From Nitrosomonas sp. (GTDB taxonomy: Bacteria > Pseudomonadota > Gammaproteobacteria > Burkholderiales > Nitrosomonadaceae), in assembly GCA_031316255.1 (NCBI GenBank), contig JALDQW010000001.1:1116001-1180000 (forward strand): a stretch of DNA of 64,000 nt, in the 5' to 3' direction. The translations under genes were made by a program, and so were the position numbers. The first letter of the stretch is position 1. Each line of letters opens with the position of its first letter. Under the pieces are notes generated by a model. The model made no database searches, was not told the DNA's origin, and saw only the letters and a list, made by a program, of their open reading frames with translations. Shown here piece by piece: positions 4,362-59,684 of this stretch.

Positions 4362-4496
4362 AAGATGAAATACGTTTTATTTCTAATAATCATTGATTTA
4401 TATCAAACAATAATTTTTGCATTATTTTTATGAGGTTGGTCCAATTTGAACAGAAAAATGGCTCTATTAAAAATATAAATGCGTTTAAATTACAGT

Positions 4497-4898: not shown

Positions 4899-4963
4899 CT
4901 GATGCTCCTTCAGCTAAATTTATAACAGTATAAACCCATACCCTTACATTACTTATACATCAA

Positions 4964-40017: not shown

Positions 40018-40168
40018 AAAGAACTCCACTTAAAGTCAGACCATCTAAAATTAATACGTAGAATATCGGTCTAATAATTCCACATAATTAAACACTTGTC
40101 CAAAATCTTGGCACAAAAGGCGCATATTTTATATGCACTTGTTGTTTAAATGCATCTTTTTATACACC

Positions 40169-41428: not shown

Positions 41429-41496
41429 TTTTTATTTCTCCTGATTGATCAAATCTTAAGCAAAACCTTACTATCAAAAGGCACAGTTGATACAGT

Positions 41497-42615
<1,119 letters not shown>

Positions 42616-43647
42616 ATGGACGAAAACAGAAGCAAAGCATTAGCCGTAGCACTGGCCCAAATTGAAAAACAATTTGGCAAAGGCGCAATCATGCGCATGG
42701 GGGCCAATGATGTTGCCAATGACATACAAGTTGTTTCCACTGGGTCGCTTAGCCTGGATATTGCGCTGGGTGTTGGTGGCTTGCCACGCGGCCGTGTCAT
42801 TGAAATCTATGGCCCTGAGTCTTCAGGCAAAACTACGCTTACCCTGCAAGTGATTGCTGAAATGCAAAAACTTGGCGGAACGGCTGCCTTTATCGATGCC
42901 GAACACGCACTGGATCCGAATTATGCACGGAAAATCGGTGTCAATGTGCAGGAACTTCTTATCTCGCAGCCCGATAACGGCGAACAGGCGCTTGAAATTG
43001 CCGATATGCTTGTGCGTTCCGGTTCAATTGATATCGTTGTCATTGATTCCGTCGCCGCACTGACACCGCGCGCCGAAATTGAAGGAGAAATGGGCGATCC
43101 GCAAATGGGCTTGCAAGCCAGATTGATGTCTCAGGCATTGAGAAAGCTGACTGCCAACATTAAGCGCAGCAACACCATGGTGATTTTCATCAACCAGATC
43201 CGCATGAAAATCGGTGTCATCTTTGGTAATCCGGAAACAACCACAGGCGGCAATGCACTCAAGTTCTATGCTTCTGTGCGTCTCGAAATCCGCCGTACGG
43301 GCGCCATCAAAAAGGGCGAAGAAACAATCGGAAATGAAACGCGCGTCAAGGTGGTCAAAAACAAAGTGGCCCCGCCATTCAAACAAGCTGAATTCGATAT
43401 TCTTTATGGCGAAGGCATTTCCCGCGAGAGCGAAATTATCGAACTCGGCGTGCAGCACAAACTGATCGACAAAGCGGGCGCCTGGTACTCCTACAATGGC
43501 GATAAAATTGGTCAGGGCAAGGATAATGTGCGCGAATATCTCAAAGAACATGCCGATATGGCCCAGGAAATCGAGCGGAAAATCCGCGAATCGGTTGGCA
43601 TCTTTGCGCCCGACAATCAAACCCAAGCGTCTAATGAAACAGAGTGA
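42616..43647 (+). CDS. recA: Recombinase RecA
   Basis: Strand-exchange ATPase for homologous recombination and SOS induction. The 343-aa protein has Walker [10 protein letters not shown] near 66-74, Walker B segment [12 protein letters not shown] near 137-148, and the L2 DNA-binding loop [19 protein letters not shown] near 196-214. Length is typical. The ATG at 42616 has an AGGA ribosome binding site. recX overlaps its 3' end. GC content rises visibly from here on compared with the DNA to the left. Confidence 0.98.
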
Positions 43648-44111
43648 TGACAGATACTGACATCAGCAAACCCACTCTCGAAACGCGTGCACTACGCTAT
43701 CTGGCGCGGCGCGAATATTCGCGGCGTGAGCTGGAAAAAAAACTGTCAGCGCATGAACAGTCGCCTCAGGCACTGTCCAGCTTGCTCGATCAACTCGAAC
43801 AGGACGGCTACCTGTCAACGGAACGTTTTGCCGAGCAAGCCGCACGGACACGCAGACCACGGTTTGGCAGCCAGCGCATCGTGCGCGAACTCAAGGAGAA
43901 AGGCGTTGACGCACATTTGATTGCCGATATATTGCCCGATCTCAAAGAAACCGATCTGGAAATCGCGTGCCAAATCTGGCAAAAAAAATTCGGCGCGCCC
44001 CCCAACGATCTCAAGGAACGCGGCAAACAGATACGCTTTCTGGTGAACAGAGGATTTTCGTCCGACGTCATTCACCAGGTATTGTCGCAGGCTGAACAGG
44101 ACAATCGATGA
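43647..44111 (+). CDS. recX: Regulatory protein RecX
   Basis: Small protein that binds RecA filaments and limits their activity. The 154-aa protein consists of repeated three-helix RecX motifs, starting with ALRYLARREYSRRELEKKL near 15-33 and continuing with DQLEQDGYLSTERFAEQAA and FLVNRGFSSDVIHQVL near the end. Length is normal. The ATG at 43647 overlaps the recA stop; a GTG directly before it (43644) is an alternative. Coupling to recA is the usual arrangement. Confidence 0.94.
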   Translation: MTDTDISKPTLETRALRYLARREYSRRELEKKLSAHEQSPQALSSLLDQLEQDGYLSTERFAEQAARTRRPRFGSQRIVRELKEKGVDAHLIADILPDLKETDLEIACQIWQKKFGAPPNDLKERGKQIRFLVNRGFSSDVIHQVLSQAEQDNR

Positions 44112-44470
44112 AAACGGTTTCAGGACTCATAGTTTCATTAATCATGCTGCTCCCATTGGCATACCCTTTTCCACTTAACGCCAGCGGGATTACAGCCATT
44201 CAGGAAATCAATACCTCTCCCGCCAGTTTTGACGGCAAGGAAGTCATGCTCAGCGGCATCACAAAAGATCCGACACGCATTCCCGTCATTGATTTGAAAG
44301 CATATGTGCTGGAAGACAATACCGGCGAAATCACCATACTCACAGGTTCCGACTTACCTGAAACAGGCATTAAACTCACGGTCCGCGTACGCATTGAGAG
44401 TCTGGCGATCATCAAGGGTGAAGCACTGGGCACGACAGTTGTTGAATTAAAAAGATACAATAATTTATAA
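44108..44470 (+). CDS. Exported OB-fold protein of unknown function
   Basis: A 120-aa protein with a signal peptide (about 1-27, hydrophobic core [15 protein letters not shown], cut near NASG) and a small OB-like beta-barrel: [27 protein letters not shown] and [15 protein letters not shown]. It looks like the periplasmic OB-fold (tOB/BOF-like) proteins, whose ligands are mostly unknown. Its start overlaps the recX stop (ATGA) and alaS begins six bases after its stop, so it is co-transcribed with recA-recX-alaS without obvious functional link. Confidence 0.72.
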
Positions 44471-44475
44471 CAGAG

Positions 44476-47067
44476 ATGAAAAGCAGCGAAATACGACAAA
44501 AATTTTTGGACTTTTTTGAGTCACATGGCCACACCATTGTCGCCTCCAGCCCGCTGGTACCCGGCAACGATCCGACGCTCCTGTTTACCAATGCCGGCAT
44601 GGTTCAGTTCAAGGATGTTTTTCTCGGGCAGGATCAGCGAAGCTACGCGCGCGCGGCCAGTTCACAGCGTTGCGTTCGCGCCGGCGGCAAGCATAATGAC
44701 CTGGAAAATGTCGGCTATACGGCGCGGCATCATACCTTTTTCGAAATGCTCGGCAATTTCAGTTTCGGCGATTATTTCAAGCGCAACGCCATTCAGTTTG
44801 CCTGGGAATTTCTGACCGACACACTCAACATTCCGCAGGACAAATTGTGGGTTACCGTCTACGCCGAAGACGACGAAGCTGCCGATATCTGGCTCAATGA
44901 AATCGGCGTCGATCCCGCGCGTTTTGTGCGCATCGACACCATGGACAACTTCTGGCAAATGGGCGATACCGGCCCGTGCGGACCGTGTTCCGAAATTTTT
45001 TACGATCACGGCGCCGATGTTGCGGGTGGCCCCCCGGGTTCACCTGACGCAGAAGGCGACCGCTATATCGAAATCTGGAATCTGGTGTTCATGCAATACA
45101 ACCGCGACAGCAACGGCGAGCTGCACCCGTTGCCCAAACCCTCGGTCGACACTGGCATGGGACTTGAACGCATTTCCGCGGTCATGCAGCAGGTGCACAG
45201 CAATTATGACATCGATCTGTTTCAGGACCTGATCAAAGCCGCCGCACGCGAAACCGGTACGCAAAATCTTGAAGACAATTCGCTCAAAGTCATTGCCGAC
45301 CATATCCGCGCATGTGCATTTCTGATCACCGACGGCGTAATTCCGAGCAGCGAAGGCCGCGGTTATGTATTGCGGCGCATTATCCGTCGCGCCATCCGTC
45401 ACGGCTACCGCCTGGGTCAAAAGGAGCCTTTTTTCTACCGACTGGTTACGGATCTGAGCAACGTAATGGGCGAAGCCTACCCTGAGTTGACTGCGGCAAA
45501 AGAACGCGTAGCCGGTGTGCTGCAACTGGAAGAAGAACGCTTTGCCGAAACGCTGGAGCATGGCATGCAGATTCTGGAAGAAGCGTTAAGCCAGGAAATC
45601 AAGGTGCTCGATGGCGAAACCGCATTCCGTCTGTACGACACCTTCGGCTTTCCACTCGATTTGACCGCCGACATTGCGCGCGAACGCGGTATCAGCATCG
45701 ACAATGAAGGCTTTGAAAAGGCCATGGCGCGGCAGCGCGAACAGGCACGCGCTGCCAACAAGTTCACCATGACCGAAGGTCTGGCGTATAACGGCGATCA
45801 AACCGTTTTTCACGGCTATGACGCATTGCAGCATGACGGCAGGATACTCGCTATCTACAAGGAAGGCACACCGGTCGATTTTATCGAAGCCGGTGACGAA
45901 GCGGTGATCGTGCTCGATCATACGCCATTCTATGCCGAATCCGGCGGACAGGTCGGCGACAGTGGCGAACTCATGGCCGCGAACGGCACGTTTGCCGTCA
46001 CCGATACGCAAAAAATCCAGGCTGACGTATTTGGCCACAAAGGACTGCTGCAAAGCGGTCGGTTGGTCGTCAAGGATCATGTCCAGGCCAGAGTCAACCC
46101 GCTCACCCGCTCCAGCATCGCCAATAATCATTCCGCCACGCATTTGCTGCATGCCGCATTGCGTAAAGTGCTCGGCAATCATGTGGCACAAAAAGGTTCG
46201 CTGGTCGACGCCAACCGGTTGCGTTTTGATTTTTCGCATAATACACCAATGACAACCGAAGAAATCAGTGAAGCCGAACGGCTGGTCAATGAACAAATCC
46301 GTCATAACTGGCCAGTTACCGCCGATCATATGAAATATGACGAAGCTGTCAAACAGGGCGCGATGGCGCTGTTCGGCGAGAAATACGCCGATGTGGTGCG
46401 CGTCATCGGCATGGGCGATTTCTCTACCGAGCTGTGCGGCGGCACGCATGTCGCGCAAATCGGCCAGATCGGTTTTTTCAAAATCACTGCCGAAACCGGC
46501 ATTGCCGCAGGCATACGCCGCGTCGAAGCGGTAACCGGCAAGGGCGCCGTCGACTATATTCAGCAGCGCGAAGCGCAACTGCAAACCATCGCGCAAACAC
46601 TCAAAACCAATCCCCAGGAAATCAATCAGAAAATTTCCCAGATCATCGACAACGTCAAGCAAACTGAAAAAGAACTTGCACAACTCAAGGCCAAGCTGGC
46701 CGGATACCAAAGCACAAATCTTGTCGATCAGGCCAAGGAAATCAAGGGTGTTAAAGTCCTCACCGCCAACCTCGAAGGCGCCAATGCCAAATCACTGCGC
46801 GAAACTTTGGACAAACTGAAAGACAAGCTCAAATCCTGCATTATCGTGCTGGCCACCGTTGACGCTGACAAAGTCACTTTGATTGCCGGTGTCAGTGACG
46901 ACCTCACCAAACAGATCAAAGCCGGCGAACTCGTCAACTTCGTCGCCCAGCAAGTCGGTGGCAAAGGCGGCGGAAGACCGGATATGGCGCAGGCGGGGGG
47001 GACGCTGCCGGATGGGTTGCCTGAGGCGTTGGAGAGTGTGGTGGGTTGGCTACAAAGCAAGATTTGA
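44476..47067 (+). CDS. alaS: Alanyl-tRNA synthetase
   Basis: Charges tRNA-Ala and clears mischarged Ser and Gly. The 863-aa protein has the class II catalytic domain (about 1-240, with [14 protein letters not shown] and [18 protein letters not shown]), the tRNA-recognition domain, the editing domain with the zinc motifs [13 protein letters not shown] near 551-563 and [10 protein letters not shown] near 653-662, and a C-terminal coiled coil plus DHHA1 domain ending [11 protein letters not shown]. Length is standard. The last 80 or so bases use different codons (many GGG, GTG, TTG) from the rest of the gene, although the reading frame and motif are intact. Confidence 0.97.
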
Positions 47068-47122
47068 ATAACTCTCATTACAAAACTTGATTCCCAATTA
47101 ATCTGTTTGAGCGTGAACACCT

Positions 47123-47569
47123 ATGAAGTTTGAACGACTGTTCACCATTATCACCAATTTCGCCTTGGTATCTGGCCTAGTACTTGTGATATTTGAACTA
47201 CAGCAAAATCGTGAAGCGATTCAGATCACGCATCAATTATCCCTAGCTGGATTAATGAGCCAAATCAATCTGGCCGTAGCATCGGATCATGAGCTCGCAG
47301 ACCTGATAGCCCGGACAAAGCGCAACGACACGAAAGACTTCAGCCCCGCAGACACCGAACGGGTCAAACACTGGACGCTGGCAATCCTTGAGCCGCGCAT
47401 CAGCTCGTATCATCTCAGAAGCAGTGAATTTGTTGTCATGGAAGACTGGTGCAATCTCATGCGCGACTATACCGACCTCTACCGGCACCCGTATTTCGGC
47501 GCTATCGTAAAGTCCGATCTCAGTTACGCAGATGACATTGCGGCGGATATAGAAAACCGGTGCAAATAA
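47123..47569 (+). CDS. Unknown protein with N-terminal membrane anchor
   Basis: A 148-aa protein with one hydrophobic helix at about 8-27 (TIITNFALVSGLVLVIFELQQN), then a helical soluble part rich in charged residues and Trp/Tyr, for example LEPRISSYHLRSSEF and DWCNLMRDYTDLYRHPYFG near 110-128. I do not recognise a named family; short proteins of this plan occur as single genes in many bacteria. It is followed within 40 bases by a dispersed repeat, so it marks the left edge of the accessory region. Confidence 0.6.
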   Translation: MKFERLFTIITNFALVSGLVLVIFELQQNREAIQITHQLSLAGLMSQINLAVASDHELADLIARTKRNDTKDFSPADTERVKHWTLAILEPRISSYHLRSSEFVVMEDWCNLMRDYTDLYRHPYFGAIVKSDLSYADDIAADIENRCK

Positions 47570-47607
47570 TGACGACGGCAGTTGATCGAAGTAAACGTGA
47601 ACGGTAC

Positions 47608-47797
47608 CGAACGGTAGGTCTTGCATTAATACATTCCCATATTCGTCAGGTCTATATTAGTAGACTAGAATTCTAGACCCGAACACCCCGTGGCACAGCC
47701 AGATCGATTGCCTGCTTCGTCGGAGAGTGCTGCGAGTTAGGTAGAGAGGACAATTTGAATGTTGTTTTGCCGCGCGACCCCTTTTGCGCGTTACGGC
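47608..47797 (+). repeat. Dispersed repeat, copy A
   Basis: About 190 bases that match the reverse complement of 52512-52730. Shared blocks include GGTCTTGCATTAATACATTC, TCGTCAGG, ATTCTAGA, ACACCCCGT, TTGCCTGCT and TTGAATGTTGTTT. A short inverted repeat (GGTCTA with TAGACC) lies in the middle. The right end (CCCCTTTTGCGCGTT) resembles the inverted left end of the other copy, which suggests a non-coding mobile element with terminal inverted repeats. Confidence 0.75.
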
Positions 47798-47822
47798 ACA
47801 GAGAGAGGCACAAGAATCTAAA

Positions 47823-48488
47823 CTAAGCCTTGCGTCGTTGTACTACAAGCCCGATCAAGCCCGCACCTATTAACACAATTATAGTTGGCTCAGGAATTTG
47901 TGCAAACACATCACCGCCATGCATTGCCAAAATACGAAATTCAGATTCGGGCAGCATTAAAAACGCTGTTTCATAAGCTTCACCAAAAGATGAGCGCAAA
48001 CCATATGGTGCACCGAGAATAAAACCAATTGCAAATTCTTCAGTATTATCAGGGCCTGGACAAGGGAAACCGCCGCAAACAAGTGCGGAACCTACGGCCC
48101 AATATGATTGATGACCTCCAAAAGCATCATAAAAAGAAGGTGTTTGCTCTAATTCGTCAATAAGAAAATCTACTTCAGAATTAGAATAGTTATACCAACG
48201 ATCGGTTTCTTCGGTAGCGCTCCACCCTGTAACGCCAGCAACATTCAAATTTGCAAGCCAGCCTACAGCATTAGCAAAAGTAACTTCGCCATCATTATTA
48301 GATCTTCCGTTATCGAAAGCATTAGGACGAGCTGCGCTTGGATCTGCTAGCCAGGTTACGTTTTGATCTGTGTCGTATACAGCTTTACCGCCCAATCTAA
48401 ATTCCAGCGTGGCATTTGCTGATGTTGTAAGAAAAATTGCAATAACGCCAACCACGAATAATTCTATTGCTTTATTGAAGCATTTCAT
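47823..48488 (-). CDS. PEP-CTERM sorting-signal exported protein (DUF1566-like)
   Basis: An exported protein of 221 aa. It has a signal peptide (hydrophobic core near 9-25, cut after SANA), a body with YDTDQNVTWLADP near 38-50 and WLANLNVAGVTGW near 77-89, typical of DUF1566/Lcl-like domains, and a C-terminal sorting signal: IPEPT, a hydrophobic helix, then RRKA. Such PEP-CTERM tails are recognised by an exosortase and go with extracellular polysaccharide. No exosortase gene is in the window. The ATG at 48488 has an AGGGG ribosome binding site. Its 3' end lies next to repeat copy A. Confidence 0.85.
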   Translation of the reverse strand: MKCFNKAIELFVVGVIAIFLTTSANATLEFRLGGKAVYDTDQNVTWLADPSAARPNAFDNGRSNNDGEVTFANAVGWLANLNVAGVTGWSATEETDRWYNYSNSEVDFLIDELEQTPSFYDAFGGHQSYWAVGSALVCGGFPCPGPDNTEEFAIGFILGAPYGLRSSFGEAYETAFLMLPESEFRILAMHGGDVFAQIPEPTIIVLIGAGLIGLVVQRRKA

Positions 48489-48779
48489 TCTATTCTTCCC
48501 CTTTTTGTTGTGAAGTTTTTCCTTTTGTATGTTTCAAGCAATATTCACTCCCAATCTACACTCCACTGTTTATTAAAGCATTAGTTTGCTTTCCATTGAC
48601 TAGCCGTTGTGAACAGTAAAATTAATCGACACTTAAAAATAAGAATCACAAAGAAAAAACGGGATCTCCAATTAGCCGTCTTGAGTCATGTATTAATACA
48701 TTCTCTGACGATCAACAAACAGCAAAATCCCGGATAATCATTATTAATATCATCTACTTGAGAATATCCTAAGGGACGA
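48489..48779. other. Intergenic stretch with a partial repeat
   Basis: About 290 bases with no gene. At 48676-48714 it holds a fragment resembling the dispersed repeat (GTCTTG, then TATTAATACATTCTCTGACG). The rest is AT-rich promoter region for the PEP-CTERM gene and 3' region of the helicase gene. Confidence 0.4.
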
Positions 48780-51242
48780 CTACTTACGCAGCATCTCTGC
48801 CAACGCAGCAAAGGTGTCCGCCAACTGACGCGTAGTTTCAGGTGGAGGAACGGGGATTTTCAAATGACTGGTCCCGGTTTGTTCATCACGCGCAACCCAA
48901 GGGTGCCCAGGTGCATCAGGATTATGCGCCGAAGCCAAAGCAGCAACAAGCTGCCCGCCAATTTGGGCAATCGCTTGCCAGGGATCAGTAACGGGCGGCG
49001 CGGTTGTTGTTATTGCTGAATCTTGACTTGAATTGGGCGGTGTAGCTGCATCGCTGCAGTCTTCTTCTTTTAATTCATAGATTGCTTCTTGTTGGATTGG
49101 CGTCTGTTCAGCCTGATCTAACGGTTCGCCGCCTCTCATATTGGCCGTCGCATTTTCCACATCTTGCATAAAGCGTTTCAAACGTGATCCACCCAGTGAG
49201 ATTTCAGCACTACCTCCATCCAGAATGCCAGCCGATAACGAGCGCTTGAATGCCAACAACGACAGCATACCTTCTTCTATCGAACCTTTGGCTACATAGT
49301 TAATTACCTGCACTTTATCCGGTTGCCCCATACGGTGAATACGAGCAATACGCTGCTCCAACAATGCTGGATTCCACGGCAAGTCCATATTCACCACAGT
49401 GTTGGCAAACTGCAGATTCAGTCCGGTTGCGCCAGCATCTGTTGATAAAAATACTCTACAATCGGTGTCTTCTTTAAACCGCCGAATCAATTCTGGGCGC
49501 TTTTCGGATGCAATGCCACCATGGAAACTGACATAGCTGATACCCCGGGTTTTAAGACGCCGAATCAAGATTTCATGGGTACGGACCCACTGACTGAACA
49601 CCACTACCTTGTTTTGTGGGTACTCGAACAATTCATCAAACAGTACCATTAATTCATCGGCCTTAGTCCCATGATCGGTTTCCTGATCTAACAAATATGT
49701 GCTGTTACATGACATACGCATATTCTGCAGCGCACAAGTCAATCGACGCTGGTCGGTATCAGACAGATATTTCTTATGACGCCAGCGTGCCACAATACGG
49801 GCAACGACTTCAGCATTTTCCTGATGCCACTGTTGTTGCTGTGCTGTCATAGGCAGGAGAACATTCTGATCCGACCGCTCAGGTAATTGTAAGAAAACTT
49901 CAGATTTCAATCGACGAATCATCATTGGAGCTAGTGTCTCGCCAATTTTGTTCAAACCAACATAGCCTGTAACCTTGCCGGTTTCATCTTTTTGCTGATG
50001 TTCATACAACAATTTCCAAGTCGGTCCAAGGCGATATTGGTCGACAAACTGCACCAGCGAAATCAGTTCTTCCAACTTGTTTTCCAGTGGTGTGCCGGTT
50101 AGCACTACTGCATAAGGACTGTTAATTCGTTTGAGTGCACGCGAGGCAATAGTGTTCCAATTTTTAATCCGCTGCGCTTCATCCACAATCACCAGTTCCG
50201 GTGACCAATCTTCTATCAAATCCAGATCGGCATGCAACTTCTCATAGTTGGTGATTTTGCAAAAGCCGGCCTGTTGATACTGCTTGCGACGTTTGGCCGG
50301 ATTACCACTGATTACCAACGATTCACGTCCGGTAAAGCGTTCATTTTCGCTCTGCCACTGGTATTTCAGCGAGGTCGGACATACTATCAACACTTTACTG
50401 ACATCAAAATAACGTGCCAGCAACTCGGTAACCGCAATGGCCTGTATGGTTTTCCCCAGTCCCATTTCATCACCGATCAATGCTCGTCCGGCCCGTACCG
50501 CAAACAAAGCACCTTCTTTCTGATACGGATAAAGTGGTACTTTTAGCAATTTCTTCCATTGCGGGTCTTCTATCCCCAATGGGAAAGTCTGGTTTAAAAA
50601 CTGCAACCGTTTCTCAGCATCACGCAATCCGGCAACATAATCCAACGCATCATCGTAAGTACGCAATTCATGCACACATTTAACCGCTGCATTAATAAAT
50701 TTATCCAACTCTCCATAGCGCTGCACAGGTAAACACCAATCTGCCGCTTCATCAAATAGCACGCGCGCTTTGTCCAATAGTTTTTGCGGACAATCGGTTC
50801 CAGGACGAAAATGTACCGTTCGTTCACTATCGTAACGCAGATATAATTCAGAAAAAACCGGGTGATAACCTCGAGCAAATGCCGTTTTAAAACCACGCAC
50901 TTTTTCCAGTTTGGCCAGCGCAAATTCAATGTGCTTACAGGTTCCCAGCTCATTGGTGGCAAAATCCGGACAGGCACAAAAATTATCACCAGGTCGCAAA
51001 CCGCGAATTGCGACCCGATAACTGCTGTTCGAAACCGGATTAACAACTTTAAAATCCGAAAAGAATTTTTCAGTCCCCTGATTGACGAGACCAAATTGCT
51101 GCACACGACCAAACTGCCGCCGCAGTCTTCGCTGCCATTCCACCGCCGTCAAACCGTCTGGTAGATGCGTCCGTGAGAGCTTAAGCTCGGTCTTAGCCTT
51201 GCGAGGCGATTTTTTCTTTGCTTTGCGGCTATTAGTTGCCAT
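48780..51242 (-). CDS. SNF2-family helicase with SWIM zinc finger
   Basis: ATP-dependent DNA translocase of 820 aa. The N-terminus is very basic (MATNSRKAKKKSPRKAK). A SWIM zinc finger, with CACPDF and GTCKH at about 89-105, precedes the SNF2 core: Walker A GDEMGLGKTIQAI near 259-271, the DEAQ box VIVDEAQRI near 353-361, LTGTPLENKLEEL near 380-392, FHGGIASEKRPELI, STDAGATGLNLQ and QRIARIHRMGQ in the helicase C domain near 540-640. The tail after 660 is low-complexity. SWIM-SNF2 proteins are widespread; their role is likely in repair or transcription but is not established. The ATG at 51242 has an AGGGA site. No methylase or nuclease partner adjoins it. Confidence 0.9.
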   Translation of the reverse strand: MATNSRKAKKKSPRKAKTELKLSRTHLPDGLTAVEWQRRLRRQFGRVQQFGLVNQGTEKFFSDFKVVNPVSNSSYRVAIRGLRPGDNFCACPDFATNELGTCKHIEFALAKLEKVRGFKTAFARGYHPVFSELYLRYDSERTVHFRPGTDCPQKLLDKARVLFDEAADWCLPVQRYGELDKFINAAVKCVHELRTYDDALDYVAGLRDAEKRLQFLNQTFPLGIEDPQWKKLLKVPLYPYQKEGALFAVRAGRALIGDEMGLGKTIQAIAVTELLARYFDVSKVLIVCPTSLKYQWQSENERFTGRESLVISGNPAKRRKQYQQAGFCKITNYEKLHADLDLIEDWSPELVIVDEAQRIKNWNTIASRALKRINSPYAVVLTGTPLENKLEELISLVQFVDQYRLGPTWKLLYEHQQKDETGKVTGYVGLNKIGETLAPMMIRRLKSEVFLQLPERSDQNVLLPMTAQQQQWHQENAEVVARIVARWRHKKYLSDTDQRRLTCALQNMRMSCNSTYLLDQETDHGTKADELMVLFDELFEYPQNKVVVFSQWVRTHEILIRRLKTRGISYVSFHGGIASEKRPELIRRFKEDTDCRVFLSTDAGATGLNLQFANTVVNMDLPWNPALLEQRIARIHRMGQPDKVQVINYVAKGSIEEGMLSLLAFKRSLSAGILDGGSAEISLGGSRLKRFMQDVENATANMRGGEPLDQAEQTPIQQEAIYELKEEDCSDAATPPNSSQDSAITTTAPPVTDPWQAIAQIGGQLVAALASAHNPDAPGHPWVARDEQTGTSHLKIPVPPPETTRQLADTFAALAEMLRK

Positions 51243-51566
51243 TTTTTCCCTGTGAGCGTAACAAAAGAACAATTTTAACAAGTCAACAGAGAAACAATAA
51301 AACTGATTTATCAAATCGGAAAAAAATCCCTGTGCAATGAAGTCTCTTCTGCAGATCTACCCTACTTCCAAATCTGCTCAATAGGCACTCAATCGCTCTG
51401 TATACAAACCCAATCAGAACCCAACCAGTAGGTCTTGCATTAATACATAGAATTAATTTTAGACTCAAACACCCCGCGGATTGTGCATCCTCTTGCCAAA
51501 TCTCTCATAGAACAATTAAAAATAGGCTGGATAATGATAGAAACGGAGTTTTCGGACAGACACGAC
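51243..51566. other. Intergenic stretch with truncated repeat copy
   Basis: About 320 bases without a gene. It holds repeat copy B at 51428-51477 and otherwise AT-rich DNA upstream of the SNF2 helicase gene. Confidence 0.4.
51428..51477 (+). repeat. Dispersed repeat, truncated copy B
   Basis: Starts with TAGGTCTTGCATTAATACAT, identical to copy A, then jumps to a segment like TTTTAGACTCAAACACCCCG, missing the central 25 or so bases. Homology fades after the CCCCG. Same orientation as copy A. Confidence 0.6.
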
Positions 51567-52132
51567 CTAAAAACTCTCCACCGATACCTCAAAGAATGTA
51601 AAGGAATTTGATAGCACAACGGTGGCGCTTAGGATTGTATCCATCTGAAAATAAAAAATATGTCCGCCCTCCTCGAGATACTCCACTGTTGCATAATGGC
51701 TGTAGAAGGTCGGTGATGCCCCATATTCCCAGTTTTCCAAAGTGGAGTGCCCATTGCCCTGGATACGTAGCCGAGCCTTGTTTTTCCCATAGCCGTAGGA
51801 ATCAATCAGGTACCACCCTGTCTGGGGAACTACAACATAAATTTTGGCGTATGGTCTACGATATTTATCCCTATTGCTCGGGCACCATGATCTTCCAGCA
51901 CGTATGTGTAAAGCCCCGTATCGGATCGTATCATCTTGGCGCCATAAAAATTCGGGGTATGCATATGGAGAACGCGAAAACGTTTGCTGGCCGTCAGTGT
52001 AACGCTAAAACCTTCTTGTGCCTCACTGACAACACTCGCTCCAGAAAGTTTGGAGGTTTTTGGCGACGGTTGATCCTTCACCGCCTGCTGGGTTTTTGCA
52101 CGAATCCGAGGATTGCTATGGTTTAGCAGCAT
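51567..52132 (-). pseudogene. Frameshifted gene for an unknown beta-rich protein
   Basis: Two overlapping minus-strand frames look like one protein split by a frameshift near 51835-51850. The first part (ATG at 52132, 100 codons, stop at 51830) contains SVTLTASKRFRVLHMHTP and DTGLYTYVLEDHGARAIGIN. The second frame continues VVVPQTGWYLIDSYGYGKN, then ARLRIQGNGHSTLENWEYG, and stops at 51567-51569. The two halves share a pattern (TG-W/L-Y..., a strand pair, then a charged turn), as repeated beta modules would. No signal peptide is seen, so the 5' end may also be missing. Family unknown. The long plus-strand frame over the same DNA (51608-52126) is less protein-like. Confidence 0.5.
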
Positions 52133-52152
52133 GCTGCGTTTTTGTTGTCGCG

Positions 52153-52173
52153 ATAGATAATTCTAGACCCTCT
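52153..52173 (-). repeat. Fragment of the dispersed repeat
   Basis: A short piece (GATAATTCTAGACCCTCTAC) matching the ATTCTAGACCC block of copy A, just upstream of the frameshifted gene. Short enough that chance cannot be excluded. Confidence 0.25.
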
Positions 52174-52289
52174 ACTTTTCTTAGAACTTTAATCCGCTTT
52201 ATTCTGTATGGCTACATAGTGTATTTAAAGGTATACTGATAGCGCTTATTAAGATTTAAGCATATTTTCTTTACAAAAAGGTTTATATT

Positions 52290-52439
52290 ATGAAATTCAC
52301 ATTATTGTTTGCAGTATTATTATCATTTGCTTTAATTGCCTGTGGCGGACCGTCAGCACCTGCGAGTCCTGGAAACACTGACAGCTATGGAACAACGCAT
52401 GAAGGCGAGGCTGTTGAAGGCCGTAATGAATTGGATTAG
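52290..52439 (+). CDS. Small lipoprotein
   Basis: A 49-aa protein with a complete lipoprotein signal: MKFTLLFAVLLSFALIAC, with the lipobox LIAC and Cys18 as the lipidated residue, followed by GGPSAPASPGNTDSY and a short acidic tail ending GRNELD. The ATG at 52290 has an AAAGG ribosome binding site about eight bases upstream. It resembles the very short entericidin-like or hypothetical lipoproteins found in many Proteobacteria. It is too short for most gene finders and lies alone among repeats. Confidence 0.7.
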   Translation: MKFTLLFAVLLSFALIACGGPSAPASPGNTDSYGTTHEGEAVEGRNELD

Positions 52440-52511
52440 CATTACGTAGACTGCAAAAACGGGGTCACACAAAAAACGAGGTCTTCTTGCAATACAATAC
52501 GAAGCATACTC

Positions 52512-52730
52512 AAATGAGCGGCGCAAAGGATCGTGTCTTGCCAAACAACATTCAATTTTTCTCTCTGCTTAGCTCGCAACACGCTCCAACGCAGCAGGCA
52601 ACCGATCCGTTTATACTACGGGGTGTCTGATCTAGAATTATAGCCTACTCAATAGGCCTGACGATTATCTGAGAATGTATCAATGCAAGACCGAACCCCT
52701 TTGCGCGGAACCCCATTGCGCGTTTTGCCG
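52512..52730 (-). repeat. Dispersed repeat, copy C (inverted relative to copy A)
   Basis: The reverse complement of this stretch runs parallel to copy A across about 190 bases, with short gaps. It is the longest copy and shows both ends: GGCAAAACGCGCAATGGGGT on the left (minus-strand sense) and a degraded GATCCTTTGCGCCGCT on the right, related in inverted orientation. The inner hairpin (AGCCTA with TAGGCT) sits where copy A has its own hairpin with a different sequence. Confidence 0.75.
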
Positions 52731-52758
52731 AATAATGACTTAACGCGCAATAAATAGA

Positions 52759-53469
52759 CTATATGCGGCTACGGCCGCGGTTCAGTACTGTCAAACCTAA
52801 TAATCCAATGCCAAACAGCCAAATAGTTGCAGGTAAAGGTACTTGATTTTTCTCGGCAGTAAATAACCAATCACTCGAATAAATATGGTCGCATCTTCCA
52901 GATATACAATTTGCGCCATGGTTAACCCAACCCCATCCTGAAATTCCGGAAAAACCACGATGACCACCGCCATTTTCATCACCCAGCTGGAACGCTAAAC
53001 CAGTATTCTGATTATTATTAGACTGATCCTCAAGTTCCCATGAACCAAAACTACTGCTAATCGTGCCAAAATTTTGATTATCGGCATGTACGACAAGATC
53101 GATCAATCCACCGTTGGCAGACTGTGAAATACCAATCTTATATTCAAAATGAATATTCCATAGATCAGTTGTGCCTGCTTTATAACCGCCTCCGATGTCT
53201 TCACCACCAAAGGCAGTGCCGTCAATTACAATTTTGCTGCCATCCCAAGTAAGCGTCATATTACTGCCGCTATGATCAAAATCAAAAGTATATTCTTTAG
53301 CTGGATCGCCCAGCAGACCATCAAGACGAAAACCATACAACGGCGGCGCTATACCACCATCGGGATGATTGTGCAGCGTATAAGTGCCTAGAGTAATTGC
53401 TTGCGCTTGTGGCATTATAAGACAGCCGACTATTGCTAGTGCAGTAAACAAATTTATATTTCTTTTCAT
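52759..53469 (-). CDS. Exported protein with VPLPA/PEP-CTERM type sorting signal
   Basis: A 236-aa exported protein: signal peptide (ALAIVGCLIMPQAQA, cut near 24), a beta-rich body (for example YTFDFDHSGSNMTLTWDGSK near 61-80 and FHYEYKIG-like strands), and a C-terminal sorting tail VPLPATIWLFGIGLLGL followed by RGRSRI. This is the VPLPA variant of the PEP-CTERM signal, handled by an exosortase encoded elsewhere. The ATG at 53469 has an AAAGG site. The body is not a domain I recognise; it may bind or structure extracellular polymer. Its 3' end adjoins repeat copy C, as the other PEP-CTERM gene adjoins copy A. Confidence 0.82.
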   Translation of the reverse strand: MKRNINLFTALAIVGCLIMPQAQAITLGTYTLHNHPDGGIAPPLYGFRLDGLLGDPAKEYTFDFDHSGSNMTLTWDGSKIVIDGTAFGGEDIGGGYKAGTTDLWNIHFEYKIGISQSANGGLIDLVVHADNQNFGTISSSFGSWELEDQSNNNQNTGLAFQLGDENGGGHRGFSGISGWGWVNHGANCISGRCDHIYSSDWLFTAEKNQVPLPATIWLFGIGLLGLTVLNRGRSRI

Positions 53470-53898
53470 TGTTATAAACCTTTCTTAAAATATTAAAATA
53501 AAAAAATTAACCTAATGCTTTAAAAATATAGTGAGCAATTTTTATGCCATATTGTTATGCTGCTGATTATTAGAGAATATTTCAGAATAATGAAAATTAA
53601 TTTTTAAGAAATGTAAAGGTTTTCGACATGTGCTAGTTTTCACCTCTAGTGAAATTTCAATGTAATAGAGCCTTTTGATTTGACTGCATTGCCCGGATTT
53701 CGGGTTCGGATTTTTTGTCACTGCGGGTTATTCTGTTGATTTTTATTAGAGCGCTTCTTGAAGATCATCAGGATGAAATCATTCCACTCGCGCTGAAGTA
53801 GCCCCGGTAATTTGGACACCAGAATGGCAATGTTAAGGCGTTATTTTCTGTATGATTATTTTTATAAATAAAAGGATGTGACCCAGTACTCTATGCGT
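53470..53898. other. Intergenic stretch with an open-frame remnant
   Basis: About 430 bases between the sorting-signal gene and queC. On the minus strand 53718-53840 is open for 40 codons without a usable start (content such as NIAILVSKLPGLLQREWNDF) and looks like the 3' end of a lost gene or part of an insertion sequence. The rest is AT-rich. Confidence 0.4.
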
Positions 53899-54600
53899 TC
53901 AGGTTAGTGAGCGGTAATACGTCATGTCCGCAATACCGGCAGCTTCAAACCCATCCCGCCTGATCCGGCAAGAGTCACAAGCGCCGCACGCACGCCCAGC
54001 TTCGTCGGCCTGATAGCACGAAACCGTCAGACTGTAATCGACGCCAAGTGCCAGACCGGTCAGAATGATGTCTTTCTTCGATAAATCGATGAGTGGGGTA
54101 TGGATGGTGAGTGCGCCGCCCTCGATGGCGGCTTTGGTCGCGAGGTTGGCCATTTTTTCAAATGCCTGGATATATTCGGGACGGCAATCGGGATAACCGG
54201 AATAATCGACGGCGTTGACGCCGATAAAAATATCCCGGCAATTCAGCGTTTCCGCCCATGCCAATGCAAGCGACAGCATGATGGTATTGCGCGCAGGAAC
54301 ATAGGTAATTGGAATGCCGGTTGTTTCACCTGACACTGGCACAGCGATGGATGTATCGGTCAGCGCCGAACCGCCAAATGCGGTCAGATCGACGGTAAGG
54401 ATTTTGTGGTCGGCAACACCTATTGCTGCGGCAACGCTCCTGGCCGCATTGAGTTCGGATTCATGCCGCTGACCGTAATCGACGCTGAGCGCGTAGCAAT
54501 CAAATTTCCGGTCTTTGGCAATCGCCAGCGCGGTGGCAGAGTCAAGGCCGCCGGACAGCAGTACGACGGCTTTTTTTTCAGGTTGAGTTGCTTTGTTCAT
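53899..54600 (-). CDS. queC: 7-cyano-7-deazaguanine synthase QueC
   Basis: Makes preQ0 for queuosine from 7-carboxy-7-deazaguanine and ammonia with ATP. The 233-aa protein has the PP-loop [17 protein letters not shown] near 12-28 and the C-terminal zinc cysteines in [20 protein letters not shown] near 194-213. The ATG at 54600 overlaps the end of queE and gives the usual N-terminus; the longer open frame up to 54708 lies inside queE. Last gene of the tol-pal-queE-queC run. Confidence 0.96.
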
Positions 54601-54604
54601 GTGT

Positions 54605-55294
54605 TCATCGCCCCGGCCCATCTTCCCAGAGCAGTTTATGCAACTGAATCTGCATGCGCACAGGCAGTTGATCGCATAAAATCCATCCGGCCAGAGTAGT
54701 TGGATCAAGCTGGTCGTGCACGGGCGAGAACAACACGGAACCGCGTCTGTCCAGGCCGTGTTCCTGGATCATCCGGCATGCCCAGCGATAATCCGCTTCA
54801 TCGCACAGCACGAATTTGATTTCATCGTGCGGCGTTAAATAATTCAGATTATCCCAACGGTTTTTGTCCATTTCGCCCGATCCGGGTGTTTTGATGTCCA
54901 TGATTTTGCAAACGCGTGGGTCAACGCCAGATATATCGAGTGCGCCGCTGGTTTCAAGCGATACGCAATAGCCCGCATCGCAGAGTGCGGTCAGCAGTAC
55001 CGGGCAATTTTTTTGCGCGAGCGGTTCGCCGCCGGTGACGGTGACATATCGTGTCCGGTAATTGACTATTCGTTCCAGAATGACGTCAATAACCATGTTT
55101 TCTCCGCCGGTAAATGCATAGGCCGTATCGCAGTAACCGCAGCGCAGCGGGCAGCCTGTCAGGCGGATGAATACGGTTGGCAAACCGGTGCGGCTGGTTT
55201 CACCTTGTAGTGAATAGAAAATCTCGCTGATACGCAAGGTTGAGGTTTTGTCGTTCCTTGCCTGGTTTGTGTGTTTGCTGCTGGAAAAATTCAA
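54605..55294 (-). CDS. queE: 7-carboxy-7-deazaguanine synthase QueE
   Basis: Radical-SAM enzyme forming the deazaguanine ring in queuosine synthesis. The 229-aa protein has [10 protein letters not shown] near 23-32 and the [4Fe-4S] motif CPLRCGYC near 48-55, then TGGEPLAQ. The start is a TTG at 55294, directly after the cpoB stop; no ATG exists before the conserved region, and a second TTG lies 19 codons later. Placement after cpoB is common in proteobacteria. Confidence 0.94.
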
Positions 55295-55295
55295 A

Positions 55296-56222
55296 TCAGA
55301 ATTGAGTCAGCCGTTGCTTGGCTTTTCCGGCGGCATCGCTGAAAGGATACCGGGTAATCAGGTCTTCAAGGGTTTTTTTGGCCGCTTTACTGTTGGCCAT
55401 TTCATTCTGGCTGCTGGCAATGTTGAGCATTGCGTCAGGCACTTTGGGACTGTCCGGATAGCGGTTGATCAGCGCACTTTGGGCATCTATCGCTTCCTGA
55501 AAATCCCGTAACGCATAAAGCGCATTGCCAACCCAGTAAGCCGCGCTCGGCGCCAGAATCGATTGCGGATAATGTTTCAGGAAGGCTTCAAACTGCGCTT
55601 TGGCGCCGCTGTAATCGCCACTGGTAAAAAGCCTGTAAGCAGTATCATAAACCTGTTTATCGGTCGCACCTGCGGGTCTTAAATCATGTTCGGGAACCGC
55701 GGCAATCATTGTTTGCGGTTCCGCGTTTGCCATTTCCGCTTCGGGTGTTAACTGTGCTTGTGGCGCAAAGTTTTCTACACTGGATTGCTCCGATTGACCA
55801 GATGCGGGCGGTACGGCAATACTGTTCGTCGATTGTTCGGGAATGGCAGGAGAATCGTCATTGGTAGGGGCGGTATAGGTTGGAAGCGGCGCATTGGGAT
55901 CTTCGATCAATCTTAAACGGTTATCCAGATCGATATAGAAATCCCTTTGCCGTTTTTGCAACGATGCGTTGTCATTTGAGAGTACTTCGATCTGCCCGCG
56001 TAATTTGCCGAGTTCCAGTCCAAGCGTCTCGACCTGGGAATAAAGATCCAGCAACGCCTGGCTTTTCAGCGCTTCTTCCATTTTGGTAATACGCGTCTCC
56101 ATTTCCTCAACCTGTTGACGCAAAACACTGATTTGTTCGCGTGCTTTATCGTCGCCAAATAATCCGGCATAGCTGGCATTGCTACTGATCAATAACAGCA
56201 GACAGAAAACGCGTATTAACAT
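55296..56222 (-). CDS. cpoB: Cell division coordinator CpoB (YbgF)
   Basis: Periplasmic protein that links TolA/Tol-Pal constriction with peptidoglycan synthesis. The 308-aa protein has a signal peptide (about 1-19), a coiled coil near 25-100 (ISVLRQQVEEMETRITKMEE), a Pro/Ser-rich linker, and C-terminal TPR repeats near 190-300 (YDTAYRLFTSGDYSGAKAQF). The domain order matches the family. The ATG at 56222 has a GAGG site four bases after the pal stop. Confidence 0.94.
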   Translation of the reverse strand: MLIRVFCLLLLISSNASYAGLFGDDKAREQISVLRQQVEEMETRITKMEEALKSQALLDLYSQVETLGLELGKLRGQIEVLSNDNASLQKRQRDFYIDLDNRLRLIEDPNAPLPTYTAPTNDDSPAIPEQSTNSIAVPPASGQSEQSSVENFAPQAQLTPEAEMANAEPQTMIAAVPEHDLRPAGATDKQVYDTAYRLFTSGDYSGAKAQFEAFLKHYPQSILAPSAAYWVGNALYALRDFQEAIDAQSALINRYPDSPKVPDAMLNIASSQNEMANSKAAKKTLEDLITRYPFSDAAGKAKQRLTQF

Positions 56223-56225
56223 GTT

Positions 56226-56741
56226 TTATTCACCTCGATAAAGTATGTCCGTGCGGCGGTTCTCACCCCATGCCGATTCACTACTGCCGTAGGCGCGGGG
56301 TTTTTCTTCGCCCAAGCTGACGGCTTCAATTTGTGATTCCCGTGCACCGGATAATGTCATGATGTTTTTTACACCATCGGCGCGACGTTGACCGAGCGCC
56401 AGATTGTATTCGCGGCTGCCGCGCTCATCGGTGTTACCCTGCAAAATGACCTGTGCATTGGGATTGTCGCGGAGATATTGTGCGTGCGCAATGACCATAG
56501 GTCTGTAGTCATTCTTTACTGTATAACTGTCAAAGTCATAAAACACACTGCGTTGTGACAAAATGCTGTTCGGATCGTTCAGCGGATGAAAACCCGTACC
56601 GCCTGAACCCAGCGCGCTGCCATCCGCGCCATAACCGCTATCTGCCCCTGTTGTTGACCGATCTTCTACATCAGGCTGCGTCGTTTGACTGGCGCATGCT
56701 GATAATAAGCCAATGATCAAAATACCTGCTATTGTCTTCAT
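56226..56741 (-). CDS. pal: Peptidoglycan-associated lipoprotein Pal
   Basis: Outer-membrane lipoprotein that holds peptidoglycan and binds TolB. The 171-aa protein has a lipobox (GLLSAC, Cys16), a Gly/Ser-rich linker, and an OmpA-like domain from about 65 with VFYDFDSYTVKNDY, GNTDERGSREYNLALGQRRA and the conserved C-terminal RRTDILY. The ATG at 56741 has an AAGGAG ribosome binding site. About 180 bp separate it from tolB, so it may have its own promoter as in other bacteria. Confidence 0.96.
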   Translation of the reverse strand: MKTIAGILIIGLLSACASQTTQPDVEDRSTTGADSGYGADGSALGSGGTGFHPLNDPNSILSQRSVFYDFDSYTVKNDYRPMVIAHAQYLRDNPNAQVILQGNTDERGSREYNLALGQRRADGVKNIMTLSGARESQIEAVSLGEEKPRAYGSSESAWGENRRTDILYRGE

Positions 56742-56921
56742 TTACCGCTCCTTTAATAATAAACAAAAAATCTTAGGGTCATCTCTAAAAATCCGAAATT
56801 TGCTACAACACGACACTACTTACAAAAATGCTTCCTTATATATCAAACGATACGCTATGTCATCATTTTTTACGCGAACCTCTTTTTTTAAATCTTCGAA
56901 TTTTTTAAACGCACAAATACC

Positions 56922-58220
56922 TCATTTTTGTTTTAGCAACGGCCCCCAAGCCGGTTCCCTGATATCACCCGTCTGAACAGATAAATGCTGCCTCGTCTGA
57001 CCATCTCTAGAAACAGCCGATAATATACCACGCCCTCCGATTTCTGTAGCATGCAAGATCATCCTGCCATTCGGCGCAAAGCTGGGCGATTCGTCAAACT
57101 GGGAATTTGTCAGAATTTGCACCTGGCGTGTGGCAATATCCTGCACTGCAACAGTAAACCGGCCTTGATGCCGGTGTATAAATGCAAAGCTTTTGCCGTC
57201 ATGACTGAAATCCGGGCTGACATTATAGTTGCCTTCAAATGTCAGCCGTTCGGCTGTTGTTGATTCTGTCGCAGAAACAGGAATACGATAGATCTGAGGA
57301 CTGCCGCCGCGATCAGAAGTGAAAATAATATGGCGTCCGTCCGGCGAGAAATTCGGTTCCGTATCGATACCCGAACTTCGGGTTAGCCGCCGCAAACCGC
57401 TGCCGTCCGCGTTAATCAGGTAAATCTGTGAACCGCCATGCAGCGATAGCACAACGGCCAGTGTTTTACCGTCAGGCGACCATGCAGGCGCGCTGTTGCT
57501 GCCGGCAAAATTGGCGACAGCCTTGCGTTGCCGCGTTGCAATCGTCTGCACATAGACCACCGGCTTTTTATTTTCGAACGAAACATAAGCGATTTGACCG
57601 CCATTGGGCGACCAGGCGGGCGAAATAATGGGTTCCGTATATTCGATAATCGAGTGTTCGTTATAGCCGTCCGAATCGGCAATCTGAAGCGCATATTTGT
57701 TTCCCTGTTTCAAAACATAGGCAATACGCGTACTGAACACACCGGCTTCGCCCGTCAATGCTTCGTAAATGATATCGGCGATACGATGTGCGGCTGCGCG
57801 TAATTGCGTTACCGGCACAATTGTTGCCAGGCCGGTCAACTGCGCCTGTCTCGCCACATCCATCAAACGAAACTGAATTTCCACCTGACCGCCGGGCATG
57901 GGAATCGTGCGCCCGATAACCAAGGCGCTCGCCCCCCGATTCGTCCAGTCGCTGTAGACGACTTCCGCAGGTGCATGGGGCGTCAATCCGGTCGGGTCGA
58001 TTAATCTGAACAGTCCGCTGCGCTGCAAATCGGCAGCAACCACATCGGTGACGCGTTGCTGCAGTCTGTTTTCATCTGCAAAAGGTACGATTGCAATGGA
58101 GATTCGTTCGGTTCCGCCGCCAAAAATTTCAATATTAAGTCTGGCGTGCAGCGGTGTGCAGACCAACCAAAGCAATACTGTCAATAGACAATAAAATTGT
58201 GTGCGAGAATGCGTTGACAT
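56922..58220 (-). CDS. tolB: Tol-Pal system protein TolB
   Basis: Periplasmic beta-propeller protein that shuttles between Pal and the inner-membrane TolQRA motor. The 432-aa protein has a signal peptide (about 1-26), an N-terminal domain, and six WD40-like repeats recognisable as recurring SPAWSPNGGQIAYVS, APAWSPDGKTLAVV, EPNFSPDGRHIIFTS, SPDFSHDGKSFAFIH blocks near 200-380. Length is normal. Confidence 0.96.
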   Translation of the reverse strand: MSTHSRTQFYCLLTVLLWLVCTPLHARLNIEIFGGGTERISIAIVPFADENRLQQRVTDVVAADLQRSGLFRLIDPTGLTPHAPAEVVYSDWTNRGASALVIGRTIPMPGGQVEIQFRLMDVARQAQLTGLATIVPVTQLRAAAHRIADIIYEALTGEAGVFSTRIAYVLKQGNKYALQIADSDGYNEHSIIEYTEPIISPAWSPNGGQIAYVSFENKKPVVYVQTIATRQRKAVANFAGSNSAPAWSPDGKTLAVVLSLHGGSQIYLINADGSGLRRLTRSSGIDTEPNFSPDGRHIIFTSDRGGSPQIYRIPVSATESTTAERLTFEGNYNVSPDFSHDGKSFAFIHRHQGRFTVAVQDIATRQVQILTNSQFDESPSFAPNGRMILHATEIGGRGILSAVSRDGQTRQHLSVQTGDIREPAWGPLLKQK

Positions 58221-58267
58221 AGATATAAGACGTTAAAAATTCGAAAAATAATATTGGATTATAACAA

Positions 58268-59206
58268 TCATTCCAAATAATGCACGGTTACATGCAGGTT
58301 CCGAAATTCATTAAATAATGCCGGGTCGGGCGGCAACGGCAGCGGCCTGGAAAGCAGAATGGCGCGCTCAACGGCACTGTCAAAAGCGGGATAACCGCTG
58401 CTTTTGCGCAACCTGACATCGAGAATATCGCCGCCTGGCAATAACGTGACGTTGAACTCGGTAACCGGGTTACCCGGTAAATCGGGCGGCATGACGATTC
58501 TGCTTTTGATTTTAGCGAGAATCATAGCCTTGTATTTTCCGATTTCACTGGCGATTTGTGCACGCGCAGCCGCCTGTTGCGCCTCGAGACGGGCTTTTTC
58601 TTCCTGCTCCCGTTTCTGCTGAGCTTCTAATTCACGTTTCTTCTGTTCTTCCTGCTCTCGTTTCTTCTGTTCTTCCTGCTCTCGTTTTTTTTGTTCTTCC
58701 AATTCGCGCTTTTTCTGCGCTTCCAGTTCACGCTGTTTTTGCGCTTCCTGTTCGCGTTTCAATCGCTCCGATTCAGCTTTTTCCTGTTCTTTTTTCTTCT
58801 GTTCCTCCAGATCGGGTTTCGGTTTTTCCTGGACGGGTTTTGGTTTTTCAGTTTTGTCTTTTAGTTCAATGTCCGGCTTACTGGGCGGTGGCGGCGCAAC
58901 ATTAATCGGCGCAGGTCTGGCCTTGGCCGGTTCCGGCTTCGGTTCGGACTTTGGCTCCGGTACAGGTTTTGGCTGTTGTTTTGGCTGGGCAGGCGGTGGC
59001 GGCGTTGTTTTGACGACCGGCGGCTGAACGGGCTGGGACAAATCCTGCCATAATTCTACAATCATGCCTTCAGGCGGACGGTCTTTCCAGTTAAACCCGA
59101 AAACCAGGAGAGCAATGAATACAATGTGCACCAGCAATGCCAAAATTCCCGCCAGCGCTGAACGCTGTTCTTCTGAAGGTGCTTTGTCTGGCTGGCCTGC
59201 AATCAT
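58268..59206 (-). CDS. tolA: Cell envelope protein TolA
   Basis: Inner-membrane protein that spans the periplasm and transmits TolQR energy to Pal. The 312-aa protein has an N-terminal membrane helix (about 24-43), a proline-rich stretch near 55-130, a long charged coiled coil near 130-215 made of repeated KKREQEEQ-type units, and the C-terminal TonB/TolA domain ending in VTVHYLE. The 8-residue repeats make this DNA itself repetitive. The ATG at 59206 was preferred to the TTG at 59230. Confidence 0.95.
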   Translation of the reverse strand: MIAGQPDKAPSEEQRSALAGILALLVHIVFIALLVFGFNWKDRPPEGMIVELWQDLSQPVQPPVVKTTPPPPAQPKQQPKPVPEPKSEPKPEPAKARPAPINVAPPPPSKPDIELKDKTEKPKPVQEKPKPDLEEQKKKEQEKAESERLKREQEAQKQRELEAQKKRELEEQKKREQEEQKKREQEEQKKRELEAQQKREQEEKARLEAQQAAARAQIASEIGKYKAMILAKIKSRIVMPPDLPGNPVTEFNVTLLPGGDILDVRLRKSSGYPAFDSAVERAILLSRPLPLPPDPALFNEFRNLHVTVHYLE

Positions 59207-59251
59207 GACTACCGATCTATTAATAAACAAAAAATGGCTTTTCAGGATTGA

Positions 59252-59665
59252 TCATTTAGGTTGTGTTAGCAAACCGACTTTTTGAACCTGGTACTGCTGC
59301 AAAATATCCATGATCTTGATGACTTCCTCGTAACGCACATTTTTGTCGGCGGCAATAACGACGGGCTGATCGGCATTTTGCGACTGTTTTTGTTTGATCG
59401 CATCAATCAGCTGTTGATGTGTCACATGGACTTCAAGACTTGTTTTGGCCCGGTCAAGCAATGCAAGACTGTTGTCGGCCTTGATCATCACCTCCAACGG
59501 TGCGGAAGGCACAGCGGATGATTTCCCGATCTGAGGCAATTCGATTTGCCCCGGATTGATCATGGGCGCAGTGATCATAAAAATGATCAACAACACCAGC
59601 ATCACATCAATATAGGGCACGACATTAATTTCATTCTTTAACTGGCGTTTAATGCGACGAGCCAT
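59252..59665 (-). CDS. tolR: Tol-Pal system protein TolR (ExbD/TolR family)
   Basis: Inner-membrane protein that forms the proton channel of the Tol motor with TolQ. The 137-aa protein has one membrane helix at about 17-37 containing the conserved Asp in YIDVMLVLLIIF, and a periplasmic domain ending VQKVGLLTQ. Length and order (tolQ-tolR-tolA) are standard. Confidence 0.95.
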   Translation of the reverse strand: MARRIKRQLKNEINVVPYIDVMLVLLIIFMITAPMINPGQIELPQIGKSSAVPSAPLEVMIKADNSLALLDRAKTSLEVHVTHQQLIDAIKQKQSQNADQPVVIAADKNVRYEEVIKIMDILQQYQVQKVGLLTQPK

Positions 59666-59684
59666 TGTGTTTTCTTACTCCAGA

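Follow-up and report, generated by a model that had tools for sequence, protein, structure and literature searches.

The window analysed here, 64,000 bases of a Nitrosomonas genome that is assembled as one contig of 3,737,323 bases (window = genome positions 1116001-1180000), holds two similar sequences of about 200 bp in opposite orientation, copy A (47608-47797) and copy C (52512-52730), which bracket an SNF2-type helicase gene and a PEP-CTERM gene. The question raised by this locus is what these repeats are, whether they can invert the 4.7 kb between them, and by which enzyme they might have been spread. According to the original prediction, they are the degraded, geneless copies of a MITE-like element and could allow such an inversion.

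The similarity of A to inverted C is confirmed by statistics: 139 of 177 aligned columns are identical, the alignment score is 94 with a maximum of 17 among 500 mononucleotide shuffles, and C is recovered by a genome search with A (E 1.1e-30, 80% identity over query positions 10-163). The ends that had been pointed out, GCGCAAnGGGG and CCCCTTTTGCGCG, are real as well and form part of longer terminal repeats. As for the three minor fragments named alongside them, the one at 51428 is real (28 nt at 89% plus 25 nt at 84%, with a terminal-repeat profile match at 51430-51448, E 0.08), the one at 48676 is short and degenerate (17/19 nt, and also 53 bp at 79%, E 8e-7, against the flank of the distant copy T1), and the one at 52153 appears in no repeat list at a minimum length of 18. 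No gene was found in A or C, the alaS-like frame of A being broken by an internal stop, and Rfam reports 0 matches to known RNA families at gathering score in positions 40000-60000 of the window. C folds mildly better than shuffled sequences (z -2.1), and A does not (z -0.75).

The proposed inversion is not supported. An invertible segment switching the SNF2 and PEP-CTERM genes would suit two inverted copies about 4.7 kb apart, but A and C are identical over no more than 13 bp in a row, which is too short for ordinary homologous recombination. Furthermore, no recombinase was recognised with Pfam among the four local open reading frames scanned (two between the repeats and one on each side), and further copies lie far off in the genome. 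Such a switch is regarded as very improbable, and it was set aside on the first of these points. The SNF2-type gene itself (48780-51239) is present in 5 of 85 genomes of the genus at E 1e-100. Around it, the corresponding stretches of four relatives contain none of eight other tested window genes at E 1e-4, and DNA similarity to the window region ends near or within the gene ends.

The genome-wide search agrees with the dispersal expected of a mobile element, returning five long copies (two of them damaged), one truncated copy and several end pieces. The long copies are located at genome positions 1163608 (A), 1168540 (C), 1740070 (T1), 1740665 (T2) and 1805211 (M1805); M1805 has an internal deletion, and in T2 the head of the right repeat is gone. 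The truncated copy at 1397374 (P1397) is 93% identical to C, and the end pieces lie at 1240779, 1400612 and 1167428. Pairwise identity among the long copies ranges from 74% (A and M1805) to 87% (T1 and T2), so they are old, and they are probably no longer moving. C and T1 have flanking sequence in common beyond the element. T1 and T2 stand in direct orientation, 595 bp apart, and T2 lies just upstream of a gene that is HD-GYP-like from its translation. A and C belong to a decayed, non-autonomous element that is about 190 bp long and low in copy number.

At each end of this element stands a terminal repeat of the GGGGTC..GTCTTGCATT type, the two being inverted to each other. The score of the left and right ends of C as inverted repeats was reached by 0 of 2000 shuffles, and GGGGTNNNGTCTTGCAW, with at most one mismatch, has 18 matches in the genome versus 0 for the reversed pattern. 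The terminal-repeat profile was built without three of these matches and without the right end of A. Such repeats are dispersed in the genome as singles, dimers and groups, and the inverted repeat inside the element resembles, by eye, a second terminal-repeat type ('TAGA'). No target-site duplication was detected at A or C: in either case the two 36-nt flanks share at most 4 nt in a row, a length reached by 493 (A) and 468 (C) of 500 shuffles. The features of the window are the following.

44476..47067, + strand: host alaS, whose gene family is the apparent source of the internal piece (sequence comparison).
47599..47616, + strand: outer edge of A, with the tandem flank duplication GAACGGTA-CC-GAACGGTA (read from the sequence; of the sort counted at other repeats, A itself standing outside those sets).
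47616..47642, + strand: left terminal repeat of A, head degenerate (profile match 47616-47636, E 0.027, below the inclusion threshold; copy alignment).
47665..47689, - strand: internal inverted repeat of A, similar to the 'TAGA' type, its head CCCC adjoining the alaS piece (likeness to L071, L076 and L078 by eye, unscored).
47690..47758, + strand: decayed alaS 3' end of A, including the stop codon, with an in-frame internal stop (alaS tail comparison; exact start by eye).
47757..47790, - strand: right terminal repeat of A plus TTTTGCGCG (alignment; weak profile match 47770-47756, E 4.9).
48661..48703, + strand: degenerate terminal-repeat-like piece, the 48676 fragment (repeat lists and flank match; no profile match).
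51430..51479, + strand: short left half consisting of terminal repeat and internal inverted repeat, the 51428 fragment (repeat lists, profile).
52461..52501, + strand: solitary terminal repeat beside C, with an ACAAAAA(A)CG tandem around GGGGTCA (sequence; weak profile match 52484-52499, E 0.92; flank common to C and T1).
52521..52554, + strand: right terminal repeat of C, head outward, C itself being on the minus strand (profile E 0.0066, this end of C being in the profile).
52553..52619, - strand: alaS 3'-end piece of C (alaS tail comparison).
52620..52645, + strand: internal inverted 'TAGA'-like repeat of C (by eye).
52673..52699, - strand: left terminal repeat of C, head outward (profile E 0.0011, this end of C being in the profile).
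52700..52721, - strand: outer edge of C, GCGCAAT-GGGGTTCC-GCGCAAA, an inexact tandem duplication (sequence; fails the exact-run test with 5 nt).

As for the enzyme, a GGGGTNNNGTCTTGCAW-type repeat stands immediately upstream (5') of the single Pfam Y1_Tnp match of the genome, which provides the transposase matching the element that had been looked for. It is predicted to be of the Y1/HUH kind, a point absent from the original prediction. The gene is located at genome positions 359305-360168 on the minus strand, and its protein scores 45.9 bits with PF01797 (cut-off 23) and 83.4 bits with NF047646, REP-associated tyrosine transposase (cut-off 80). The protein aligns an HUH motif and a tyrosine with TnpArep 4er8 (E 9e-4), and the role of this tyrosine is presumed from family knowledge. 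At the C-terminus, where the TIRYT kind (subclass 2.1) has a helix-turn-helix extension, HTH_38 and LacI match in residues 236-282 with scores that stay under the Pfam cut-off. The repeat upstream of the gene is GGGGTCAA, with its last base outside the GGGGWSAS motif of the inverted repeats that lie at both ends of TIRYT genes, and the downstream repeat is degenerate. A second, weaker match to the protein was counted in the same genome, so another enzyme is possible.

The association of repeat and transposase is also seen across the genus. A relative of the protein is present at E 1e-5 in 52 of 85 genomes, with a close group (73-100% identity) in 7 of 85. Exact GGGGTNNNGTCTTGCATT occurs in 5 of 85 genomes, namely 4 of the 7 with a close transposase relative (at least 73% identity) and 1 of the 78 others (Fisher 8e-5); G058 carries the repeat and gives no Y1 match at E 1e-5. 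According to inspection by eye of the seven close genes, a GGGGTCAAGTCTTG-like head with varying first bases lies upstream of six (all but L059), an inverted copy of the repeat downstream of four (L059, L060, L063 and L064), and clear inverted repeats at both ends of three (L060, L063 and L064). The repeats of the relatives diverge after GTCTTG, and those of other transposases in the genus have a similar head and different tails, e.g. GGGGTCAGGTCTAGA and GGGGTCAGGTCGCGA. The pattern GGGGTCAGGTCKNGA gives 65 matches in 27 of 85 genus genomes (1 match for the reversed control), and a Y1 match is found in 25 of these 27, all except G057 and G083, versus 27 of the 58 others (Fisher 3e-5). Elsewhere, a related protein is matched within the fetched stretch at 16 of 80 examined repeat loci, and some of these matches are short. 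At E 0.001, 4 of 85 genus genomes have the 190-bp element, whole or in part. Close inverted pairs of the repeat, with starts 32-66 bp apart, were observed at L218, L235, L250, L259, L272 and L281, in records named Omnitrophota, Thiobacillus, Aminicenantes, Elusimicrobia, Betaproteobacteria and Actinobacteria.

In its middle, the element resembles a piece captured from the essential gene alaS. Its body runs from the left repeat through the inverted TAGA-like repeat (by eye) to a stretch of about 70 bp matching alaS 3' ends together with the stop codon. Against 21 alaS tails (from 30 fetched alaS loci, taken where the motif was found), the best local scores are 36 for A, 33 for C, 32 for T1, 32 for T2, and 38, 35 and 33 for L051, L052 and L055, with shuffle maxima (60 shuffles each) of 19, 19, 18, 24, 18, 17 and 18, respectively. 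For M1805 and P1397, the scores with the same 21 tails (14 and 12) do not exceed the shuffle maxima (22 and 16). The best-matching alaS for all seven sequences above the shuffles is that of G070 and not that of the host, and A matches the G070 tail with E 2e-8 in a 12-locus database.

The region behind alaS provides a candidate setting for this capture. In the window, 541 bp separate alaS from the start of A. An antitoxin/ParE-like pair (Pfam) comes after alaS in G012, and G011 has similar DNA there; beyond it, both genomes carry a second alaS tail that ends in the right terminal repeat, the match starting 589 bp (G011) and 565 bp (G012) past the end of the alaS match, a distance similar to that of A, and the displaced tail of G011 is readable in the alaS frame over 20 residues. 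G033 also has a second tail, whose end lies 729 bp behind the first. On contig C34 of G039, the repeat stands directly after the alaS stop codon; this contig starts inside alaS and another alaS lies on C139, so the C34 gene may be a second copy or belong to a foreign contig. The G012 region also holds an integron integrase gene (TIGR02249, 455 bits). From these arrangements we infer that the element originated in the vicinity of A. Among the literature matches listed, none by title records alaS as an integration site.

Several further observations concern this region. The stretch L128 (G012:C43) contains, at 843-5329 behind alaS, the antitoxin/ParE-like pair, the displaced alaS tail and the integron integrase gene, as well as cassette-like genes on the other strand, one of which is a pPIWI-associated nuclease by Pfam. 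A further alaS 3'-end piece lies behind the integrase region beside a GTPase-like gene fragment (from its translation) at L128 5986-6129 and L129 4969-5132. In L136 (G033), the stretches 1688-1849 and 4170-4617 cover the second tail behind alaS and a relative, at 82% protein identity, of the 148-residue open reading frame 47123-47569 of the window, a frame for which neither Pfam nor NCBIfam gives a match at E 0.001.

The integrase and the cassette-like genes behind alaS in G012 might suggest that the repeats are integron attC sites, but the transposase repeats account for the ends. By two simple and weak tests, the six copies examined have no attC-like core pair in common; the relaxed version yields one pair each in A and M1805, and the cassette gaps of G012 and G011, which served as positive controls, gave none. 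An attC origin is considered extremely improbable.

Another reading takes the copies for what remains of alaS 3'-end duplications that arose when a cassette or island inserted behind alaS, with terminal repeats inserted beside them later and dispersal by segmental duplication instead of transposition. It agrees with the further alaS tails in G011, G012 and G033, with the integrase gene of G012 and with the flank similarity of C and T1 beyond the element. The long copies, however, have common modules, and except for C and T1 their alignments end near the terminal repeats, so this origin is judged rather unlikely. The whole is best explained, with good though not full confidence, by an element with transposase-type ends that carries an alaS piece and would have been spread by the Y1 enzyme. 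Cassette entry behind alaS would have displaced an alaS tail, terminal repeats would have come to flank it on both sides, and the Y1 transposase would then have spread the whole unit; transposases of this family act on single-stranded DNA. A would still lie near the place of origin, with C and the distant copies as descendants.

Traces of nicking may be present at the outer edges. Outside the repeats, 7-13 nt of local flank, often together with GGGGTCA, stand in tandem. A duplication was counted where a flank of at least 7 nt ending at the repeat recurs 6-45 nt upstream, and the same test beyond nt 27 served as the inner control; sites of one genome are not independent in these counts. In the genus set, 19 of 62 outer sites and no inner sites are positive (at most 2 in each of 50 shuffles; random places 22/1550), and in the host genome 6 of 18 outer and no inner sites (shuffles at most 1; random 6/510). 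Five further sites in relatives have no duplication (0/5). Among the sites listed for named genomes of several phyla (78 loci), 19 of 106 outer sites are duplicated and 2 inner ones (at most 2 in 20 shuffles; random 32/3051), and among those listed for held-out stretches of the same scan 13 of 44 and 1 (shuffles at most 1; random 11/1264). With other limits, the test gives 15/63, with 2 inner sites, 0 in shuffles and 4/1009 at random places.

Regarding the breakpoints, a stretch of 6 nt or more is repeated at 45 of the 170 sites listed in the genus and named sets. Of these, 17 run 0-1 nt into the repeat, where chance matches would fall, and 11 end exactly 7 nt into it, after GGGGTCA, while the remainder are spread. 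The held-out breakpoints lie at 7 nt in 4 of 13 cases, at 8 nt in 2 and at 0-1 nt in 1, so the 7-nt pile is reproduced and the 0-1 nt pile is not.

Ordinary replication slippage, silent on transposition, might also generate such duplications. Slippage is common, the 0-1 nt pile failed to recur, and tandem REP clusters with flanking DNA are noted in the excerpted text of Di Nocera 2013 (PMC3733652), which means that tandem flanks are not wholly new. Against slippage stand the excess of outer over inner sites in the genus, named and held-out sets (the latter two among the sites listed) and the recurrence of the breakpoint 7 nt into the repeat, and we consider it unlikely as the full explanation. 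In the examined parts of PMC3733652 and PMC6006769, the partial head, the breakpoint and the outer-edge duplications do not appear. Among the literature matches listed for RAYT with tandem duplication, a term that also caught other words, none fits by title; for GGGGTCAGGTC and its complement no title concerns repeats or transposases, and one concerns a bacterium (Sphingomonas).

Returning to the Y1 enzyme, it would nick the repeats after GGGGTCA, perhaps at the outer boundary too, and repair of the nicks would leave tandem copies of the flank. To our knowledge, there is still no clear account of how RAYT-like transposases disperse their repeats. More generally, and only tentatively, a Y1 transposase of the TIRYT kind may nick repeatedly after GGGGTCA (perhaps also at the outer boundary), growing tandem flanks in many bacterial groups, and may be able to pick up and spread part of an essential host gene, alaS being the case here. 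The recurrent outer-edge duplication with its preferred breakpoint points to a possible enzyme cut site that can be tested in vitro, and from the alaS piece it seems that host DNA can travel with such repeats. Locally, the element explains the repeats and makes an inversion switch less plausible.

In comparison with known systems, the element is similar to MITEs in being short, without an intact open reading frame, with inverted ends and a related transposase elsewhere in the genome, but there is no target-site duplication at A or C and the transposase is not of the DDE kind. The MITE reading of the original prediction is retained in part: a non-autonomous, MITE-like, dispersed element with inverted ends and a matching transposase stands, and inversion of the 4.7 kb is not supported. 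With REPINs and BIMEs associated with a RAYT, it has in common two inverted repeats with heads outward, lack of autonomy and a Y1 transposase gene in the genome. Unlike them, 0 of the 18 repeats of the genome carry the GT[AG]G tag (GTAG is read, though, at the degenerate left end of A and at that of the 51428 fragment), folding is no better than in shuffles (mean z +0.44, RNA parameters), and the spacer is about 150 bp. The closest likeness is to TIRYTs and TIRtrons. According to the excerpted text of the two articles, TIRYT is the name for Y1 transposases with inverted repeats of the motif GGGGWSAS (Di Nocera 2013, PMC3733652), and 20 of 26 TIRYTs fall in subclass 2.1 (Quentin 2018, PMC6006769). 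Alike, as far as these excerpts go, are the RAYT-related Y1 HUH transposase, the inverted repeats with a GGGG-type motif, and the dispersal of repeats also as singles, dimers and groups. In contrast, the dispersed unit here includes part of a host gene and apparently two repeat types. On balance, the element probably works like, and belongs with, the TIRYT/TIRtron kind.
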